From Lysinibacillus sp. B2A1 (lineage in GTDB: Bacteria > Bacillota > Bacilli > Bacillales_A > Planococcaceae): 64,000 nt of DNA. The stretch covers positions 5,196,001 through 5,260,000 of the forward strand of contig CP027224.1 of NCBI GenBank assembly GCA_002973635.1. The letters run 5' to 3'. The translations under genes were made by a program, and so were the position numbers. Below the pieces are notes generated by a model, which worked only from the letters and a program-made list of their open reading frames with translations, was not told the DNA's origin and made no database searches. Of the stretch, positions 17,513 to 26,902 are shown one piece after another. The stretch's first letter is position 1, and the number at the start of each line of letters is the position of its first letter.

Positions 17513-17914
17513 CCTCCCTCTATAAATGTTGATATATCAATGGTTCACGCCACTTTTACGTGTCAAAAAAATTTTTTTCGACACATCCATCTATCGTTAT
17601 TTTGTATTTCTTTCTTTTTCTTACAAACTATCCGTATGCTTCGCTAAAAGAAAGACCATTAATTGGTAATAATCTTCCTGATTTTATGCGTTATAGCGAT
17701 GCACTGTTGGATCTCTGCGTTGCTTATGATGACGGACCCTCCCATATCTCTAGGCGTCTGTTTGCGCGTACATTCCTTCGTTCGGTCTAGTCATAAGGCA
17801 GAGGCTGGCGATGCTCCCTTAGGGACTCATTTCAGTTGTTTGAATGGTCGGATGGTGAAAATAGTGCCGGCTTCTCCATGTCATCCTCTTGATTTTGACT
17901 TCTGATGGCGGCGC
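17513..17914 (-). ncRNA. Candidate bridge RNA region of IS110 copy A
   Basis: A 402-bp non-coding end lies downstream of the transposase. It contains a 10-nt copy (17811-17820) of the element's own opposite terminus and a GGGAGG-containing segment (17735-17745). IS110-family elements are known to encode a bridge RNA in a non-coding end that pairs with donor and target. The exact RNA ends cannot be set from sequence alone. Confidence 0.45.
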
Positions 17915-19192
17915 TTAGGCAGTCATCTGAAGATGGGCGAAATCCTTCATCATTTGATGTTCATCAAACATCGTTTTCTTTTTGCACAAGGCATGTAAAA
18001 TCTTTACTAACTTGCCACATAGCACAACGATCGATTGCTTTTTACGCAGTGGATTGTTGGCACGTGTGGTGTAGTATTCGTGTAACGCTCGAAAAGCTGG
18101 GTTATGTTTGATTAACGGCATCATTACGCGGAACAGGAGCGCACGTAATTGACGACGACCTCGCTTGGAGATGCGCTTTTGTCCTTTTTGCTGACCAGAG
18201 GAGTTTTCACGCAATGTGAGTCCCGCTAATTTGATTAATTGGCGTGGATGCGCATATTGTGTGAGTGAACCGACCTCTGAAAGTAAATCGACTATCGTGA
18301 TATCACCAATTCCAGGAACAGATGCTAAATAGTCATAATCCGTCATTTGTTTGGCTTGCTCAATGAGCTGTGCCGTTAATTTTTCAAGTTGTGTCTGCAT
18401 CAATTGGATTTGAGAGAGGAGTGTGGCAATTTCAAAACGTGCCATCACAAGACCTTCTGTCACTCCAATGGAGCTTTCTGCTACCTCGCCCAATTGCTTT
18501 GCCTTTGGTAGTTGGGGACTTTTCATTCCCTCTACTTGGCGATAAAGGAAGAGCAGTTCTTCCGGTGTTTTTCCATTGATATCCGATGGTAGAGGTGTTT
18601 TTTCAAGCACCGCATAGGCCATCTTCCCAAAACTTTTAAATACTTGAGTAAATTCAGGAAAAAAGCGATCGAGCCAACGAATGATCCGATTTTGAAGCGC
18701 ATTTAAGTCTTCTTGTATTTTGGCACGCAATGTCGCGCCGTTGCGAAGTTCTGCTTCTACACCCGCTAAAATACGTGGATAGCTGAAGCGTCCATCGCGC
18801 ATTAGACGAGCAATCACTAGTGCATCCTTTTGGTCATTTTTCGTTTGCAGGTTATCATCGAGTTCCTTCGAGCGATTGACGTGCATCGGATTCACCATCA
18901 CAAAAGGAATGCCGTAGTTTGTTAAAAACGCAGCTAAGTTCATCCAGTAGTGACCTGTTGGCTCGAAACCAACGAGGATTTCCTGTTTATCATGTATCGC
19001 CTTTAACGCAAGTAATCGTTCATAAAAAGCTTCAAATCCCATGTGTGATTGAGCAATCGGAAATGATTTTTGAAGCACACGACCACGATCATCGATGGCA
19101 CATGCAAAATGTTTATACTTCGCGATGTCAATACCGATGACAAGCGTATTTTCAGAAACTTGATTAATTTTTTCATTCGTATTAAAATTCAT
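17915..19192 (-). CDS. IS110-family transposase (DEDD recombinase), copy A
   Basis: 425 residues from the ATG behind GAGAGGAC (a longer frame to 19252 lacks a ribosome site). The N-terminal RuvC-like DEDD site is Asp22 in VIGIDIAKYKHF, Glu77 in VGFEPTGHY, and Asp120/Asp123 in NDQKDALV. The C-terminal transposase_20 domain has VPGIGDITIVDLLSEVG and RENSSGQQKGQKRISKRG with the candidate catalytic serine. It differs from copy B at two residues (Arg versus Cys in WLDRFF, Gln versus Leu in LIEQAK). Confidence 0.92.
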   Translation of the reverse strand: MNFNTNEKINQVSENTLVIGIDIAKYKHFACAIDDRGRVLQKSFPIAQSHMGFEAFYERLLALKAIHDKQEILVGFEPTGHYWMNLAAFLTNYGIPFVMVNPMHVNRSKELDDNLQTKNDQKDALVIARLMRDGRFSYPRILAGVEAELRNGATLRAKIQEDLNALQNRIIRWLDRFFPEFTQVFKSFGKMAYAVLEKTPLPSDINGKTPEELLFLYRQVEGMKSPQLPKAKQLGEVAESSIGVTEGLVMARFEIATLLSQIQLMQTQLEKLTAQLIEQAKQMTDYDYLASVPGIGDITIVDLLSEVGSLTQYAHPRQLIKLAGLTLRENSSGQQKGQKRISKRGRRQLRALLFRVMMPLIKHNPAFRALHEYYTTRANNPLRKKQSIVVLCGKLVKILHALCKKKTMFDEHQMMKDFAHLQMTA

Positions 19193-19317
19193 TGTTATAG
19201 AGTCCTCTCTGTAGATGTGCGAGTCAATTGTCTGTTGATACTCAAGCATCATACAAGAGGGCTTTTTTTATTTCAAGTCCCCGAAAACGTTTCTAACAGG
19301 AATGCTCCCTTTAATTC

Positions 19318-19821
19318 CTATCGTTCTAATATATAGTAGACAAAACTTAACTCCTGACCATTCAATTCAAATTTCTCGTCACTGATACTTACTTGTTTAA
19401 ATCCATTTCTTTCAAGGACTCGTTGAGAAGCAATATTATGAGTTGTTGTTTTTGCCTTCAACTTCTTGATAGTGCCCTCTGTTTCTAATAATAGCTTTAA
19501 AGCCCTAGCTCCTATTCCATTTCCCCCGTACTCTTCACCCACTCTATAGCCGATTTCTGCAGAATTATTAGTTGCATCAATATCTACTAAATTTATTCTT
19601 CCTACAATATTGCCCATGTTGTCTCTAATTAAGTAAAATATTGATTTTTGATCCTGTTGCTCTGCTAAAAGCTCTTTATGTCTCTCTTGAAATGTTTCAA
19701 ATTTATAATAATCTTCCCCACGGCTTGGTACCATTTGCTCAAAAAATAATCGATTATTCTTTTCAAAAGTAAATAATTCTTGCGCATCATTTTCTCGTAA
19801 TTTATAAATAGATATTTCCAA
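19318..19821 (-). CDS. GNAT-family N-acetyltransferase (RimJ/RimL-like)
   Basis: 167 residues. The acetyl-CoA site reads EIGYRVGEEYGGNGIGARAL and the C-terminal signature NIASQRVLERNGFKQV. Opening IYKLRENDAQELFTFEKNN is typical of RimJ/RimL-type enzymes that acetylate protein N-termini or small amines. The substrate is unknown. Its stop is 6 bp from the IS110 end. Before insertion the downstream gene was the small membrane protein at 17328. Confidence 0.87.
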   Translation of the reverse strand: MEISIYKLRENDAQELFTFEKNNRLFFEQMVPSRGEDYYKFETFQERHKELLAEQQDQKSIFYLIRDNMGNIVGRINLVDIDATNNSAEIGYRVGEEYGGNGIGARALKLLLETEGTIKKLKAKTTTHNIASQRVLERNGFKQVSISDEKFELNGQELSFVYYILER

Positions 19822-19988
19822 ATTTACACGACCCCCTTGTCATTATCTAAAGATGTTTCCTGCTGTATAATTTGTTATAAAATAACAGGTTTGTTTTATA
19901 ATTATCTTATCGAAGAGTTTAGGTTTTATCAAACTTTTGAAGAATGCCTGTGTATTGATAGAATTTATAATAGAGGAGAAATAATTTT

Positions 19989-20339
19989 ATGAAACGCATT
20001 GTAGCATGTATTGTGGCGCTTGCTTGGCTGATTGGTGCAGGTGTCTATTATTATGTAAATGTAGATAAGCATTATGTGTTCTTACATGAATTCAATGATT
20101 TCCCTATCCCAATGAAGGCAACGTTAGAGAGTGAAAGTGCGAAAGGAAATGGATTTATATGGGGAAAATCCACAGGTACAGAGGTTCCTCTTGGCTATCG
20201 TATAATGATTAAAAAGAGTGGATGGAAGCAGGTTAAAATGGATGGCCATAATGTCATTTATAAAAAAGATGACAAAGTAATAAATCTCTCATTAGCAAAT
20301 AAATATATCGGCGTCCTAAAAATAGAGGATAAAAATTAA
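19989..20339 (+). CDS. Unrecognised membrane-anchored protein
   Basis: 116 residues behind AGAGGAG. Residues 4-24 are an uncleaved anchor or signal (VACIVALAWLIGAGVYYYV). The remaining 90 residues are extracytoplasmic, with no cysteine and a mixed beta pattern (GYRIMIKKSGWKQVKMDGHN). No known domain is recognised. It is monocistronic, with a hairpin terminator 17 bp after the stop. Confidence 0.65.
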   Translation: MKRIVACIVALAWLIGAGVYYYVNVDKHYVFLHEFNDFPIPMKATLESESAKGNGFIWGKSTGTEVPLGYRIMIKKSGWKQVKMDGHNVIYKKDDKVINLSLANKYIGVLKIEDKN

Positions 20340-20355
20340 CTTCTATAATTTAGTA

Positions 20356-20383
20356 AAGCTGATTCATCATTTTGAATCAGCTT
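20356..20383. terminator. Intrinsic terminator
   Basis: 11-bp perfect stem AAGCTGATTCA / TGAATCAGCTT. The DNA from 20384 to 20577 holds a minus-strand coding-like relic (GKLGIHKTKDTIMYDLLKES) that I cannot assign. Confidence 0.75.
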
Positions 20384-20577
20384 ACTGAGCAATATAATTT
20401 ATATCAATTTACTTTCTTTCAGTAAATCATACATGATGGTATCTTTCGTTTTATGAATACCTAATTTCCCTATTTGCTTTAAGATAATGGTGCAACTATG
20501 AGATATATTAACAAATAATACAAATTTGCTTGCAACACAAGTTGGTTCTAACATTAGCATGAGCTGTTAAGCGTGTA

Positions 20578-21585
20578 TTAATTCTTACTGGTTAATGTTA
20601 ATTTTCCAAAGCCTTTAATAGTTAAACTTACTTGCTTTTTTTCATCCCAAATACTATAAGGATATACTAAATTAACTATAGTTTTTCCATCTATTGATTT
20701 TATATTGGCTCCTCTTGCATAAAAGGCCTCTCCTCGTTCATTTGTTAATGCCCATTGAGTAAATTGGGTTTCATCCTCTTTATCGAGGATGACAGATATA
20801 TGCATAGAGCCATTCGTAAGGGTTGCTGATTGAAGTTGAATGCCCTCAACCACATTTTCTGCTTCAAATGATTGTGTTACAACCTTCATTGGTGTCAATG
20901 TAAATGCCCATTCTCCATTAATAGTGACAATCCCTTTCTTTTCTGTTAAGAAATGAATTGTTTCAATTACTAATTGAGCGTTATCTAGAGAAGGCCACGC
21001 CCGTTCATTCGACTGTAATAGAAGTTCATAAATTATAGTTTCGTCGGTTCCTTTCAGCATTTGCACCTCAGCATTATCCGTAAAACCTTTTGAAGTAAGA
21101 GGCTTTGTATCTGAAATAAGAGCATCCATTTCTTTTCCTTTAGAATCATACATACGGTATTCAATACTCATATGCTGAATATCTTTTATATCCATGTTCC
21201 TTGGTAAAATCTCTAACTGTAGCCCTACACGGTAGGCATCAGCAAATGTATTTTCAAGTGTAACCGTAATATCTTGTGAACTTTGCGATACTCCGACATA
21301 TTGCACTTCTCCATTTTGACTAGCAAGTTCAATCCCAGCGTCCTGGAAACCTAGAAATGCTTTTAGTTTAGCCATTGCTGTATCATTAGACAAAATTACA
21401 CTCGCAGCCAGTACTACACATGCTGCCGCAGCTGAAATAGGCTTCAACCAACGTTTTTTTGTCTTTTTCTTTGATTTAGAGCGAATCTCTGTATAGGAAC
21501 GTTCAAAAGCTTTCTGCACAATATCTGGTATTTCTTGCTCTCTATTCATTTCCTCATGTAAACGCTCGTCTAATGATTTTTTCAT
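20578..21585 (-). CDS. Membrane-anchored anti-sigma factor, DUF4179-like
   Basis: 335 residues: a cytosolic basic N-terminus (KSKKKTKKRWLKP, residues 36-48), one membrane helix (ISAAAACVVLAASVIL) and a long extracytoplasmic beta-rich region starting FLGFQDAGIELAS. This is the DUF4179 anti-sigma layout. Its ATG overlaps the ECF sigma stop by 4 bp, so the two are co-translated. It should hold the sigma factor at the membrane until an envelope signal is sensed. Confidence 0.82.
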   Translation of the reverse strand: MKKSLDERLHEEMNREQEIPDIVQKAFERSYTEIRSKSKKKTKKRWLKPISAAAACVVLAASVILSNDTAMAKLKAFLGFQDAGIELASQNGEVQYVGVSQSSQDITVTLENTFADAYRVGLQLEILPRNMDIKDIQHMSIEYRMYDSKGKEMDALISDTKPLTSKGFTDNAEVQMLKGTDETIIYELLLQSNERAWPSLDNAQLVIETIHFLTEKKGIVTINGEWAFTLTPMKVVTQSFEAENVVEGIQLQSATLTNGSMHISVILDKEDETQFTQWALTNERGEAFYARGANIKSIDGKTIVNLVYPYSIWDEKKQVSLTIKGFGKLTLTSKN

Positions 21586-22100
21586 AGTAATTGTGCCTCC
21601 TCAACATAATAATTATTTTTCAGATATTGCTTCGCTCTGGAAATCCTCGACTTAATCGTCCCCTCTGATTCATGAAGAAATTCGCTTATTTCCCTTGTCG
21701 TGAGTCCATTCACATAATAAAGTGTTAAAGCAATGCGATAGCTCTCATCCAGACTCTCTAATGCTTCATCGAGCTCAAGAGAAATTTGATCTTGGTGTCG
21801 CAGTTCATGCAATGTCGTCACATCCAGAGGTACAGTACGCTGATCCTGCCTCATAAATCGATAGCAGTTATTTAAAAGAATTCGACAAATCCATGTATTA
21901 AAATATTTCGCTTCTTTTAGAGAATCTATTTTTTCAAACGCTGTCAGAATTGTATCTTGTAGAAGGTCTGCAATATCCTCATCTTTCAAACCAAGTCTTT
22001 TAGCCGTCCGATAAAGTGTCATTTCGTATTGACGGATTAATTGTATAAAAGCTTCTCCATCTCCCTTCTTTGCTTTTTTCACTAGAAACTCGTATTGCAT
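21582..22100 (-). CDS. ECF-type RNA polymerase sigma factor
   Basis: 172 residues. Region 2 reads YEMTLYRTAKRLGLKDEDIA then DLLQDTILTAFEKIDSLKEA, and region 4 reads SYRIALTLYYVNGLTTREIS then EFLHESEGTIKSRISRAKQY. It is paired with the anti-sigma gene that overlaps its 3' end. ECF units of this type usually autoregulate. A possible ECF-like promoter (GCAACTAAC ... CGGTA) lies upstream near 22130-22165 but is weak evidence. The rest of 22101-22497 shows a hairpin near 22188-22215 and the terminator at 22444. Confidence 0.88.
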   Translation of the reverse strand: MQYEFLVKKAKKGDGEAFIQLIRQYEMTLYRTAKRLGLKDEDIADLLQDTILTAFEKIDSLKEAKYFNTWICRILLNNCYRFMRQDQRTVPLDVTTLHELRHQDQISLELDEALESLDESYRIALTLYYVNGLTTREISEFLHESEGTIKSRISRAKQYLKNNYYVEEAQLL

Positions 22101-22443
22101 GTCATCACCTCTTTTTTCTCTTATATACCGTTAGAGCATTTTAATTGATAGTTAGTTGCATTGATTGATTATTTAATAACACTAAAAAAGCAACAAACGA
22201 AATAATAGTCAGTTGCTGCATTCTAATATAACTTTTAAACGAGAGGATATTAAACTTCAGATTTGCAAGCAACTAATCTGTCTATTCATGTACTTTTAAA
22301 AAACTTATTGTTCATCTCAGAAAATAGGTATTTTCGATGCATCTTTTTTGGTAAAGTCATTCTTTATTGATATTGAATTCCTTTTGTAAACTGTGTTATT
22401 CAATACTAAGCCAATCAATAGAGGGCCCCCTCATCATATAGAA

Positions 22444-22482
22444 ACCCCCGCATTTGAAACATATTGGTCAAAATGCGAGGGT
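22444..22482. terminator. Intrinsic terminator
   Basis: 14-15-bp stem starting ACCCCCGCATTTGA, just downstream of the broken acetyltransferase gene. Confidence 0.75.
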
Positions 22483-22497
22483 CAATTTTATCGATAT

Positions 22498-22908
22498 TTA
22501 ATTATCAAATATGCCTCGGCATATTTGCGTCTGGATTTGACGTTGTCTATAGATGTATTTTTTAGCTATATTTAAAAATACATTGTAATAGTCTTCTTCT
22601 GGAAAGTCCCCTATATATTCCAGACCATTTCTTAAATAAAACTCTTTTAACTTTTCATTTCCTGCCCAACAATCCAAATATATCGTTTTTTTCAACTCTT
22701 TTACAAAGGAACAAGCAAATTGTGTTATTGAGGAACCAAAATTTTTCCCTTGAAATTCGGGTAATATAGCAATTTGAGATAGATATTTACTTTTTGCTTC
22801 AACAGAGAACTCATTTGTCTTTTCAATTTCACTTATACAAAATGTTCCAATTATTTTTTTATCTAATATTAAAACGGGCTCAACGCCAAAATCTGTTCTT
22901 GCTTAAAA
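22498..22908 (-). pseudogene. GNAT acetyltransferase, C-terminal part cut off by ISL3
   Basis: The frame reads ARTDFGVEPVLILDKKIIGT then YLSQIAILPEFQGKNFGSSI (acetyl-CoA loop) and YLDCWAGNEKLKEFYLRNGL, a GNAT domain without its N-terminus. It opens directly at the ISL3 edge. The matching N-terminal part lies on the far side of the element at 24237-24393. The last 25 residues appear frameshifted. Confidence 0.8.
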
Positions 22909-24236
22909 ATAAATACAAAAAAACACCTGTATCCGCTAAAGTTGAGAGTACCACCAAACAACACAGCGAGGTATACAGATGCACTCTCATTCTATCAAGG
23001 ATTTATGGGATTTACCACAATTAAAAATTACTGCAACCGAAAAAATAGACCAACAGATTTTCATCGACGTGATGCCAATCGAATTGAAACAATCCTGTCT
23101 CGTTTGCAAGTCCAATCAAACGATTCGTCGAGGGATTAGTTATAGACGTACAGTCCGTCACCTTGATGCTTTTGGGTGTCGAGTTTATTTAAAGTTGCCT
23201 GCTATTCGTCTATCGTGTACAGCTTCATTCGTCTGGCATTACGCATTTGTAGCACCTAAAAAGCGCTATACAAAGGCATTTGAAGCGACTTTACCAAAAC
23301 AAGCAATTGGTGCAACCATCACACATACAGCGCGTGTAACAGGAACCCCTGCAACAACGGTAGCTCGTATCGTGAAAGCTTGGAAAAAGAAAGAAGCATC
23401 ACGTGTTCAACAAGCCTGTCAGCACAAGGCATCTTATTGTCAAAATCTCGTGCTTGGACTGGATGATTTCGCCATTCGCAAGGGGCATACCTACAATACT
23501 GGTTTGCATGACTTACGAAATGGCGCATTTTTAGATATTATTCCAGGACGCACCATCCTTGAATTAGAGGCATATTTCAGTGAACAGGTGACCCTTTGCG
23601 CATTAAAACCGATTGCCATCGTAATGGATTTAGCAAAGGCTTATCATACATTCGCTAAAAAGATGTTTCCAGCAGCAATCCGTATTGCCGATCGGTATCA
23701 TGTGAATCGATACGTGACAGAAGCACTCCAAGCTGTCCGAAAGTCTGTTCAAAAGAGGCTGAATGCCTTTGCGAAAAAGGATTTAAAACAATATTTTCGT
23801 ATTTTAGGAAAACGAAATGACCAGCTATCAATAGAAGAACGTATGATTTTAAAACGACTTTTACAATATGACACTGTTTTACGACAAGTTTACGATTGGA
23901 AAGAGGCTTTTATCGACTGGTACGATTGTAGTTCATCGTATAAACAAGCAAAAAAAGGCTTTCAACAATGGCTTTCGCAAGGTCGAGAAATTCTGCACCC
24001 TAAAGTGCAAGACTGTTTACAAACCATGCGTAATTGGCAAGATGAAATCTGTAATTACCATCAATTACGTTTCACCAATGCGGCAGTTGAAGGGAAAAAT
24101 AACCTCATTAAAGCCCTACAACGTCGTCACTTTTTCACGCGTAACCCGCAACACTATAAAGAAACGATTTTACTAGAGTGCAATGCAGAATGGATTGAAT
24201 ACGGCTCTTAGTCAAGCACATGTTTTGGTGAAGAGC
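22909..24236 (+). mobile_element. ISL3-family insertion sequence
   Basis: A transposase gene sits between a seven-base direct repeat CTTAAAA (22902-22908 and 24237-24243), close to the 8-bp duplications typical of ISL3. The right end has the ISL3-like terminal motif (reverse complement GCTCTTCACCAAAACATG). I could not find a convincing matching inverted repeat at the left end, so that boundary is inferred from the duplication. Confidence 0.7.
22979..24211 (+). CDS. ISL3-family transposase
   Basis: 410 residues of the ISL3 DDE family. N-terminal zinc-finger-like CLVCKSNQT, then a helix-turn-helix (TARVTGTPATTVARIVKAW). Catalytic acidic residues are in LGLDDFAIRKGH, IVMDLAKAYH and FTNAAVEGKNNLIKALQR. 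Full length and undamaged, so potentially active. It interrupts a GNAT acetyltransferase gene on the opposite strand. Confidence 0.9.
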   Translation: MHSHSIKDLWDLPQLKITATEKIDQQIFIDVMPIELKQSCLVCKSNQTIRRGISYRRTVRHLDAFGCRVYLKLPAIRLSCTASFVWHYAFVAPKKRYTKAFEATLPKQAIGATITHTARVTGTPATTVARIVKAWKKKEASRVQQACQHKASYCQNLVLGLDDFAIRKGHTYNTGLHDLRNGAFLDIIPGRTILELEAYFSEQVTLCALKPIAIVMDLAKAYHTFAKKMFPAAIRIADRYHVNRYVTEALQAVRKSVQKRLNAFAKKDLKQYFRILGKRNDQLSIEERMILKRLLQYDTVLRQVYDWKEAFIDWYDCSSSYKQAKKGFQQWLSQGREILHPKVQDCLQTMRNWQDEICNYHQLRFTNAAVEGKNNLIKALQRRHFFTRNPQHYKETILLECNAEWIEYGS

Positions 24237-24393
24237 CTTAAAACGTAAGAGAAATTATTCTCTATTTGATTTTATTGTTATCCCAGGGGTAATCCCATTG
24301 ATGTATCCCTTTTTGTTGCAAATCCAAAGTAGTGGTATTCAAAATATACAACAATTGCTGTAAGTCATCTAATTTAGCTAATCTTATCTTCAT
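24237..24393 (-). pseudogene. GNAT acetyltransferase, N-terminal part
   Basis: ATG 24393 behind GGAAGGG reads MKIRLAKLDDLQQLLYILNT then LDLQQKGIHQWDYPWDNNKI, a GNAT opening, and stops at TAG 24262 or continues one frame off as ENNFSYVL up to the ISL3 edge. It pairs with 22498-22908. Confidence 0.75.
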
Positions 24394-24563
24394 ATATTTA
24401 TTCCCTTCCTTTTATGGTACCAGCTTTAAATCACCTGTGATATGTAATAAGCAGATGGCAATGGAGAGGCTCGTTATAGAACTTCTAAACCATCTGCTTT
24501 TGTATGGAAGTACCTTTTTACCATTAGAAAGATGGAGAAAAGTTAGTTCCTAAGTTTCCTACT

Positions 24564-24800
24564 CTACACCTCTCCTTTTTTACGTGCTGCCATTTCATCT
24601 TTCATTTCTTCTTTTAATCCTTCAATTGACTTTTGACGTCGTTTATTTTTTTCTTTAATCATTTCACTTTGCATAGGGTCTGCAAATTCCAAACTAATTT
24701 CTGCTTCATGAAGTTTTTCTTCAGTATTTTTAACGATATCACGAATTCGTTCAACGTTATTGGATCTATCATCTGGTTTCGAGTATCTTGAATTAGCCAT
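24564..24800 (-). CDS. tlp: Small acid-soluble spore protein Tlp
   Basis: 78 residues from ATG 24800, which follows GGAGG. A longer frame to 24902 has no ribosome site. Reads KPDDRSNNVERIRDIVKNTE then EKLHEAEISLEFADPMQSEM and IKEKNKRRQKSIEGLKEEMK, matching the helical, charged Tlp family of forespore proteins. It is expected to be made late in sporulation under SigG or SigF control. It confirms a spore former. Confidence 0.88.
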   Translation of the reverse strand: MANSRYSKPDDRSNNVERIRDIVKNTEEKLHEAEISLEFADPMQSEMIKEKNKRRQKSIEGLKEEMKDEMAARKKGEV

Positions 24801-24904
24801 GGTAACCTCCTTAAATTTTGACATAAAATTAGTTTGTATTTTTCTTATGTTTATATGTACACTAACTTTTACTAAGTAAAGCGCATTTGCCCTTTTAGCC
24901 ACGA

Positions 24905-24972
24905 CAAGTGCTGGAGAAGGCCTACATTTGAAAATGCTGTTGAAGCAACTAGCAGCTGATGTGAATACCTAA
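24905..24972 (+). pseudogene. 3' end of an unrecognised deleted gene
   Basis: The frame reads TSAGEGLHLKMLLKQLAADV and stops at TAA 24970, followed by a strong terminator. There is no start, so it looks like a leftover C-terminus. Confidence 0.3.
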
Positions 24973-25000
24973 ACATCACGAAACTTATACTTCCTTATCT

Positions 25001-25039
25001 AAAAAGCCTTTAAGGAAATATATCCCTTAAAGGCTTTTT
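25001..25039. terminator. Strong bidirectional terminator
   Basis: Perfect 15-bp stem AAAAAGCCTTTAAGG / CCTTAAAGGCTTTTT. Confidence 0.88.
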
Positions 25040-25222
25040 ACTCAAATAATTAAATTAAAGTACAACTTAAAATATACATTTTCCCTAAGCTCTAAAGTTC
25101 TTTAAGGGAGCATTCCTGTTAGAAACGTTTTCGGGGACTTGAAATAAAAAAAGCCCTCTTGTATGATGCTTGAGTATCAACAGACAATTGACTCGCACAT
25201 CTACAGAGAGGACTCTATAACA

Positions 25223-26500
25223 ATGAATTTTAATACGAATGAAAAAATTAATCAAGTTTCTGAAAATACGCTTGTCATCGGTATTGACATCGCGAAGTAT
25301 AAACATTTTGCATGTGCCATCGATGATCGTGGTCGTGTGCTTCAAAAATCATTTCCGATTGCTCAATCACACATGGGATTTGAAGCTTTTTATGAACGAT
25401 TACTTGCGTTAAAGGCGATACATGATAAACAGGAAATCCTCGTTGGTTTCGAGCCAACAGGTCACTACTGGATGAACTTAGCTGCGTTTTTAACAAACTA
25501 CGGCATTCCTTTTGTGATGGTGAATCCGATGCACGTCAATCGCTCGAAGGAACTCGATGATAACCTGCAAACGAAAAATGACCAAAAGGATGCACTAGTG
25601 ATTGCTCGTCTAATGCGCGATGGACGCTTCAGCTATCCACGTATTTTAGCGGGTGTAGAAGCAGAACTTCGCAACGGCGCGACATTGCGTGCCAAAATAC
25701 AAGAAGACTTAAATGCGCTTCAAAATCGGATCATTCGTTGGCTCGATTGCTTTTTTCCTGAATTTACTCAAGTATTTAAAAGTTTTGGGAAGATGGCCTA
25801 TGCGGTGCTTGAAAAAACACCTCTACCATCGGATATCAATGGAAAAACACCGGAAGAACTGCTCTTCCTTTATCGCCAAGTAGAGGGAATGAAAAGTCCC
25901 CAACTACCAAAGGCAAAGCAATTGGGCGAGGTAGCAGAAAGCTCCATTGGAGTGACAGAAGGTCTTGTGATGGCACGTTTTGAAATTGCCACACTCCTCT
26001 CTCAAATCCAATTGATGCAGACACAACTTGAAAAATTAACGGCACAGCTCATTGAGCTAGCCAAACAAATGACGGATTATGACTATTTAGCATCTGTTCC
26101 TGGAATTGGTGATATCACGATAGTCGATTTACTTTCAGAGGTCGGTTCACTCACACAATATGCGCATCCACGCCAATTAATCAAATTAGCGGGACTCACA
26201 TTGCGTGAAAACTCCTCTGGTCAGCAAAAAGGACAAAAGCGCATCTCCAAGCGAGGTCGTCGTCAATTACGTGCGCTCCTGTTCCGCGTAATGATGCCGT
26301 TAATCAAACATAACCCAGCTTTTCGAGCGTTACACGAATACTACACCACACGTGCCAACAATCCACTGCGTAAAAAGCAATCGATCGTTGTGCTATGTGG
26401 CAAGTTAGTAAAGATTTTACATGCCTTGTGCAAAAAGAAAACGATGTTTGATGAACATCAAATGATGAAGGATTTCGCCCATCTTCAGATGACTGCCTAA
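25223..26500 (+). CDS. IS110-family transposase (DEDD recombinase), copy B
   Basis: 425 residues, full length, with the same DEDD and serine motifs as copy A. The start ATG follows GAGAGGAC in both copies. The Arg-to-Cys change in WLDCFF and the Gln-to-Leu change in LIELAK are the only residue differences, and neither lies in a recognised catalytic motif. It could mobilise either copy. Confidence 0.92.
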   Translation: MNFNTNEKINQVSENTLVIGIDIAKYKHFACAIDDRGRVLQKSFPIAQSHMGFEAFYERLLALKAIHDKQEILVGFEPTGHYWMNLAAFLTNYGIPFVMVNPMHVNRSKELDDNLQTKNDQKDALVIARLMRDGRFSYPRILAGVEAELRNGATLRAKIQEDLNALQNRIIRWLDCFFPEFTQVFKSFGKMAYAVLEKTPLPSDINGKTPEELLFLYRQVEGMKSPQLPKAKQLGEVAESSIGVTEGLVMARFEIATLLSQIQLMQTQLEKLTAQLIELAKQMTDYDYLASVPGIGDITIVDLLSEVGSLTQYAHPRQLIKLAGLTLRENSSGQQKGQKRISKRGRRQLRALLFRVMMPLIKHNPAFRALHEYYTTRANNPLRKKQSIVVLCGKLVKILHALCKKKTMFDEHQMMKDFAHLQMTA

Positions 26501-26902
26501 GCGCCGCCATCAGAAGTCAAAATCAAGAGGATGACATGGAGAAGCCGGCACTATTTTCACCATCCGACCATTCAAACAACTGAAATGAGTCCCTAAGGGA
26601 GCATCGCCAGCCTCTGCCTTATGACTAGACCGAACGAAGGAATGTACGCGCAAACAGACGCCTAGAGATATGGGAGGGTCCGTCATCATAAGCAACGCAG
26701 AGATCCAACAGTGCATCGCTATAACGCATAAAATCAGGAAGATTATTACCAATTAATGGTCTTTCTTTTAGCGAAGCATACGGATAGTTTGTAAGAAAAA
26801 GAAAGAAATACAAAATAACGATAGATGGATGTGTCGAAAAAAATTTTTTTGACACGTAAAAGTGGCGTGAACCATTGATATATCAACATTTATAGAGGGA
26901 GG
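26501..26902 (+). ncRNA. Candidate bridge RNA region of IS110 copy B
   Basis: 402 bp between the transposase stop and the element end. Inside, AAGGGAGCAT (26595-26604) repeats the first 10 nt of the element, in the context CCCTAAGGG, and TATGGGAGGG (26670-26679) resembles the other end and the target octamer. Placement downstream of the transposase is the arrangement described for the IS1111 group. Structure and ends need experimental mapping. Confidence 0.45.

Follow-up and report, generated by a model that had tools for sequence, protein, structure and literature searches.

Two copies of one IS110-family element, inserted at the same octamer in otherwise different surroundings, raise the question of how such an element chooses its site and what becomes of the gene behind it. 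The copies lie in a stretch of 64,000 nucleotides from Lysinibacillus sp. B2A1 (assembly GCA_002973635.1, contig CP027224.1, positions 5,196,001 to 5,260,000), referred to here as the window, and the octamer, AAGGGAGG, resembles a Shine-Dalgarno (SD) sequence. An earlier reading of the window (the original prediction) proposed that the non-coding end of the element encodes a bridge RNA with two guide loops, that this guide recognises ribosome-binding sequence, and that insertion silences the downstream gene. In this study the copies were compared with relatives from the genus and the order, and the results indicate that the element is very probably an RNA-guided transposon whose target-loop guides read the host DNA around an AG core and which is directed here to SD sequences.

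The two copies measure 1791 bp each from core to core, with one AG core counted, and differ at 2 of 1791 positions; the 1799 bp given earlier corresponds to the element plus the shared octamer. Copy 1 occupies 17516..19306 on the minus strand and copy 2 occupies 25109..26899 on the plus strand, with junctions taken from comparison with six near-identical copies. Their insertion sites read TTAAAGGG-AG-G and TTTAAGGG-AG-G, and the flanks differ outside the octamer, as had been noted. The genome (5.51 Mb, one contig) contains seven near-identical copies of the element, three copies of a sister element of 75% identity, and fragments. Alignment of the flanks of all seven copies, a check that the original prediction had suggested, placed each at a related octamer and not at unrelated sequence: GGG-AG-G in five, GAG-AG-G in one (L013) and GGG-AG-T in one (L012). 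Among the ten complete copies of the element and its sister, nine have the site GG-AG and L013 alone has GAG-AG. The SD guide of the sister element (L016, L017 and L018) is slightly different, TAAAGG versus TAAGGG.

In the relatives, the left junction consists of the host left target, AG and CATTCC (ATTCC in some), and the right junction consists of GAGGG, AG and the host right target. Because the targets of group B, described below (..GGGGC-AG-GTTAGTT), narrow the overlap, AG is the only sequence common to both junctions; the dinucleotide core and the lack of target duplication are traits of the IS110 family. In copy 2 the left core lies at 25109..25110 (narrowed to AG through relatives with the target ..GC-AG) and follows the host bases AAGGG (25104..25108), which vary among copies of the same element; the right core lies at 26900..26901, and the host right target starts at 26902. 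The cores of copy 1, placed by sequence comparison, are at 19305..19306 (left) and 17514..17515 (right) on the minus strand. A single AG was present in the intact sites of relatives for two sister copies and for window copy 1. The site of one sister copy was uninterrupted in all 12 relatives read (16 relatives matched across the junction) and that of another in 2 of 2. For window copy 1, one relative (92% identity over 402 bases) has the uninterrupted site, two bases shorter, AAAAGG-AG-TGAC. For window copy 2, no match with an intact octamer was found among 32 genomes, its own included; L249 spans the place but without the octamer. Some neighbouring copies in relatives (L075, L027/L101) are in tandem or bridged by N and are possibly head-to-tail insertions.

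Relatives were collected from 80 named loci, 32 genomes of the genus and 261 genomes of the order, 54 of the latter having a match at 1e-110; at most six candidates were scored per genome of the order, and copy numbers there are therefore lower bounds. Parsing of the 216 loci gave 111 sites, of which L077, wrongly parsed, was discarded, leaving 110 distinct insertion sites from Bacillales relatives; the unparsed loci were flank duplicates, were truncated, gave no match or had no recognisable end. Independent copies occur in many genera. A looser rule yielded 23 more rows from more distant elements, of which L077 was dropped and 22 were kept as a held-out set.

When the non-coding ends were aligned, two short segments were found to vary between target groups. 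The segment that precedes AG repeats the last five host bases before the core. It was tested on 109 of the 110 sites (one being N-filled), representing 50 guide types, by averaging within types and shuffling guides among types. From -1 to -5 the left guide matched the host left flank at frequencies of 1.00,.98,.97,.88 and.85, compared with.56,.94,.55,.34 and.31 after shuffling, and the match dropped at -6 (.35 vs.27); the sum over -1 to -8 was reached by 0 of 5000 shuffles, and a run with 101 sites was similar. The relation also holds within the SD class (59 sites, 27 types; the E-class L213 excluded), again reached by 0 of 5000 shuffles, with p values of.004, <.0002 and.002 at -3, -4 and -5 and nothing further out, even though SD-class guides differ only slightly (e.g. 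AAGGG, AAAGG, ATAGG and TGAGG). Read as its reverse complement, the second segment, 5' of the left guide, gives the host sequence on the right of the core; the best of 11 registers gave z 6.8 and the next 5.2 (110 sites, 50 types), and within the SD class p was.001,.011 and.004 at +1, +2 and +3. In the held-out set, with guides placed by a covariance model, 103 of 110 bases matched and 16 of 22 sites were perfect, a match equalled by 2 of 20000 shuffles of its seven guide types. Such covariation of target guides with the host target is a trait of bridge RNAs and seekRNAs. Common descent of the element alone does not explain it, since the flanks are host DNA, vary between copies and are uninterrupted in relatives.

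In copy 2 the left target guide, AAGGG with the core AG, was thus placed by covariation at 26595..26601, and the right target guide, TTTTCACC (the complement of GGTGAAAA), was placed at 26554..26561 by the register scan and SD-class covariation; comparison with copy 2 puts those of copy 1 at 17814..17820 and 17854..17861 on the minus strand. A scan of both strands of the window finds the sequence AAGGGAGCAT at four places, namely at the element starts (25104-25113 and, on the minus strand, 19302-19311) and in the non-coding ends (26595-26604 and, on the minus strand, 17811-17820). Its non-coding copy had been taken for a match to the end of the element and for a candidate for one of two guide loops. 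It does lie in a loop of a guide RNA, but its AAGGGAG is the left target guide rather than a repeat of the donor end; AAGGGAGCAT was accordingly rejected as a donor guide, because it follows the host flank. The two sequences singled out earlier, AAGGGAGCAT and TATGGGAGGG (26669-26678), do fall one in each loop, but the right target guide TTTTCACC had been missed.

The non-coding end of copy 2 runs from 26501 up to the core at 26900-26901, and the proposal that it encodes a two-loop guide RNA is borne out by comparison of relatives. The putative bridge/seek RNA was located by comparative structure and a covariance model at 26530..26717 (plus strand, ends approximate) and, in copy 1, by comparison and the RNA model at 17698..17885 (minus strand). 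An alignment of 32 diverse non-coding ends, with the counted structure drawn by hand, gave a closing stem, a target loop whose 5' strand carries the right guide and whose 3' strand carries the left guide, and a donor loop. Pairing holds in 95.5% of cells, and seven pairs change on both sides. Covariance folding against homologues, which had also been suggested earlier, thus gave a conserved two-loop structure, with 19 cells of double-sided change compared with 5.5 in shuffled alignments and at most 2 when partners were slid; two such loops are a trait of bridge RNAs and seekRNAs, although the target-loop stem carries the reservations given below. In 24 of 30 other loci the covariance model matched downstream of the recombinase gene; it missed L087, which ends shortly after the gene, and five decayed IS110 fragments of the same genome (L019, L020, L021, L022 and L023). 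Comparison among relatives demonstrates, at the level of sequence, both the matching of guides to targets and the RNA structure. A search of Rfam gave no gathering-score match in the element region or in the seven copies with flanks. The RNA model also matched an uncultured Lachnospiraceae contig (L132:2696-2893, E 8e-7), some 500 nt downstream of a recombinase with 30% identity, so the RNA type may extend beyond Bacillales.

The donor loop, to which TATGGGAGGG belongs, is conserved. The right donor guide, AAGGAATG (26637..26644, plus strand), is invariant in the 32 aligned sequences and complements the element start CATTCCT (7 nt). The probable left donor guide, ATGGGAGGG (26670..26678, plus strand), was placed from the alignment in a provisional register and resembles the element end GAGGGAG.

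That the target is SD-like agrees with the classification by rule of the 110 sites into SD (60), B (35), D (8), C (6) and E (1), where every site that the rules for B, C, D and E do not claim counts as SD. Start-codon and pairing counts leave out SD copies with short or N-filled flanks, so that 57, 56 or 58 of the 60 were used. An ATG opening a reading frame of at least 40 codons lies 5-11 nt from the core in 34 of 56 SD-class copies; other windows of 7 nt average 2.3 such copies and reach 8 at most. Within 19 nt such an ATG was found for 36 of 57 SD-class copies and for none of 48 in groups B, C and D, and when GTG and TTG were also allowed the counts were 41/57 and 3/48. All three sister copies lie at ATG starts, and one of them is inserted in the SD of the threonyl-tRNA synthetase gene (thrS); as the genome has a second thrS, this copy is no proof of continued expression. 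Group B (L061-L079, L144-L194) lies mostly in the recurring palindromic sequence AACTAACGGGGC-AG-(G/T)TTAGTTGAA, which looks like a dispersed repeat; within its range, L176-L178 match the palindromic target on the left side only. Groups C and D (L064, L068, L069, L073, L080-L082, L206-L209) have other recurring targets, GCCGAGG-AG-GCTCACCGCC and CCCGCGGG-AG-TCTCGC.

Silencing of the gene behind the insertion, which the original prediction had expected, is not supported by the predicted pairing with the anti-SD. Using a 16S rRNA tail that we take to be that of the host, the mean predicted pairing was -11.6 kcal/mol before and -12.6 kcal/mol after insertion; it was more than 1 kcal/mol weaker in 0 of 58 SD-class copies and more than 1 kcal/mol stronger in 27, and silencing of translation was rejected on this basis. 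Since the right end of the element is GAGGGAG, the SD would be rebuilt at the same spacing, and the gene probably could still be translated from the replacement SD. Transcription of that gene would have to originate in the element. The right end has not necessarily been selected for SD replacement, as lineages without SD targeting share it.

A possible course of events may be outlined. Transcription of the recombinase would probably start at a promoter-like site in the left end and continue into the 3' non-coding end, where it would supply the two-loop bridge/seek RNA. The donor loop would pair with the joined ends of a circular intermediate and the target loop with both target strands around the AG core, the left guide reading five bases 5' of the core (AAGGG here) and the right guide three or more bases on its 3' side. 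After insertion, the right end GAGGGAG would take over the 5' half of the SD. Here and at about half of the sampled sites the guides spell an SD (AAAGG-AG-GTGA), so the element would land in ribosome-binding sites in gene sense. The transcript, the circle and the catalysis are inferred by analogy with known members of the family.

Several observations weigh against RNA-guided insertion into SD sequences as set out above. Insertion at gene starts, part of the earlier proposal, is favoured by the SD-class relatives (34/56), but a clear ATG follows only two of the seven genomic copies of the element itself, the window copies not being among them: copy 1 lies 15 nt upstream of a GTG, a tentative start of a 56-codon reading frame, and a TraB-family gene in convergent orientation ends before copy 2. 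L012 has T instead of G 3' of the core, and within the SD class the right guide showed no covariation at +4 to +6. For the RNA, RNAalifold gave no target-loop stem on the alignment used for the hand-drawn structure but recovered five of the six pairs of this stem when run on longer sequences. Twenty of the 32 sequences break one pair of the stem and 19 of 32 one pair of the donor hairpin, and the number of pair types was not above shuffles (16 vs 16.7). The single window sequence showed no stability beyond that of shuffles (z 0.04), and its minimum free energy fold departs from the consensus in the target loop.

Other explanations differ greatly in plausibility. That the recombinase prefers GGGAG by protein-DNA contact, the similarity of the non-coding end being incidental, would agree with the GG-AG common to many targets and to the right end of the element. 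We consider it very unlikely, as relatives of 65-68% identity use GGGGC-AG and others TTATG-AG or CCCGG-AG with the RNA segment co-varying, the segment tracks the target within the SD class too, and the family is described as RNA-guided (PMC11187229, PMC11208160). Still more remote, to the point of being negligible, is the idea that the insertions are products of homologous recombination or assembly duplicates; near-identical copies in one genome might suggest it, but the flanks that differ outside the octamer already contradict it, as do the uninterrupted sites in relatives and the independent copies in many genera.

The serious alternative, to which we give only slightly less than an even chance, is that SD targeting confers no selective benefit: the guide reads a short purine motif, and the copies at gene starts are survivors, insertions within genes having been lost. 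Copies were at starts in 34 of 57 cases, exceeding motif-matched sites in the same flanks (5/27; Fisher p 4e-4), so choice of the motif may be supplemented by survival of harmless insertions or by longer guide matching. When gene-start copies were counted first, 4 of 57 SD-class copies lay in reading frames of at least 130 codons, and the element itself is mostly found away from clear starts. On the other side, the right guide of the element also has the GTGA part of the extended SD, and SD-type guides are kept across relatives of 43-89% identity. A more far-reaching reading, which we offer tentatively and regard as rather doubtful, is an IS110 lineage whose guide RNA mimics ribosome recognition and whose right end is kept as a substitute SD that lets the gene be translated from a transcript of the element, that is, a translation-sparing gene-start transposon, with sisters that have switched guides. 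The right target guide does resemble an anti-SD 16S tail as we presume it to be, and the left guide resembles an SD; if the mimicry were real, almost any gene start could be reached without a dedicated repeat. In a tree of 61 recombinases (a quick method, with some open forks and long branches flagged), the five target classes require five changes, the parsimony minimum; as SD-class elements occur in several parts of the tree, including relatives of 43-49% identity, SD targeting may be old, with later switches to other recurring sequences.

The 425-aa protein encoded at 25223..26500 (plus strand) is, as judged from its sequence, an IS110-family recombinase of the DEDD/serine type; that of copy 1, identified as a reading frame and by comparison with copy 2, lies at 17915..19192 (minus strand). 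It carries the domains DEDD_Tnp_IS110 (E 3.3e-35) and Transposase_20 (E 1.5e-23), as expected of the family, and scored 231.7 bits against NF033542 (cut-off 140). D22, E77, D120, D123 and S332-G333, from the domain search and an alignment with PDB, align with ISCro4, the N-terminal part of the alignment being weak (14.7 bits). The promoter-like sequence TTGAAA-17-TATGAT lies upstream at 25139..25167 (plus strand) and is similar in relatives by eye; four such sites were found in the region, compared with 4.9 expected from shuffles. An ATG at 25163 would give a longer frame of 445 aa, and the start at 25223 is likelier because this ATG falls within the -10-like hexamer. The gene of an ISL3-family transposase (22979-24211) lies between the two IS110 copies.

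The mechanism is already known and the SD target looks new. No IS110 element targeting the SD was found in the titles and abstract openings listed by full-text searches, for which PMC11187229 and PMC3196728 were opened in part and ISfinder was outside the scope. The 132 insertion sites (110 + 22) form a natural panel from which to read how guides specify targets in IS110 elements that carry their RNA at the 3' end: five bases in the left guide, the core AG, and three or more bases in the right guide. They suggest a programmable recombinase whose target is a functional signal and not a repeat, and which has its own means of sparing translation; if true, this would be a possible route for inserting cargo at gene starts.

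RNA guidance and its natural redirection have already been described (PMC11208160, PMC11187229). The element resembles IS621 of the IS110 group in its DEDD recombinase with a serine motif (PDB 8wt6, E 2.5e-13) and in an RNA whose two internal loops both carry a left and a right guide, the dinucleotide core included (PMC11208160/PMC11208158). Unlike IS621, it has its RNA in the right, 3' end, its guides in the order right then left (in IS621 the left guide is at 50-58 and the right at 77-80), the core AG instead of CT, an SD target, and a recombinase of 425 rather than 328 aa. The best PDB sequence match is the shorter ISCro4 recombinase (9t56, 341 aa, E 1.4e-13), the comparison being one of proteins. 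A downstream non-coding region is reported for some IS110-type elements (PMC11187229), and the long non-coding region with RNA downstream of the recombinase gene, together with the order of guides, a top-strand match 5' of the bottom-strand match (right guide 26554-26561, left guide 26595-26601), are traits of the IS1111 group, shared with the seekRNAs of ISEc11, ISPa11 and ISKpn4 (PMC11187229). The group's subterminal inverted repeats of 7-17 bp were not found, the longest being 3-6 nt (shuffled mean 4.6), and IS1111 membership by inverted repeats was rejected, none being above chance. Further differences from ISEc11, ISPa11 and ISKpn4, besides these repeats, are the promoter-like site within the left end and a target that is a ubiquitous functional motif. 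As with ISEc11 and ISXne4 (PMC11187229), the relatives examined here appear to have been redirected in nature through changed guides.

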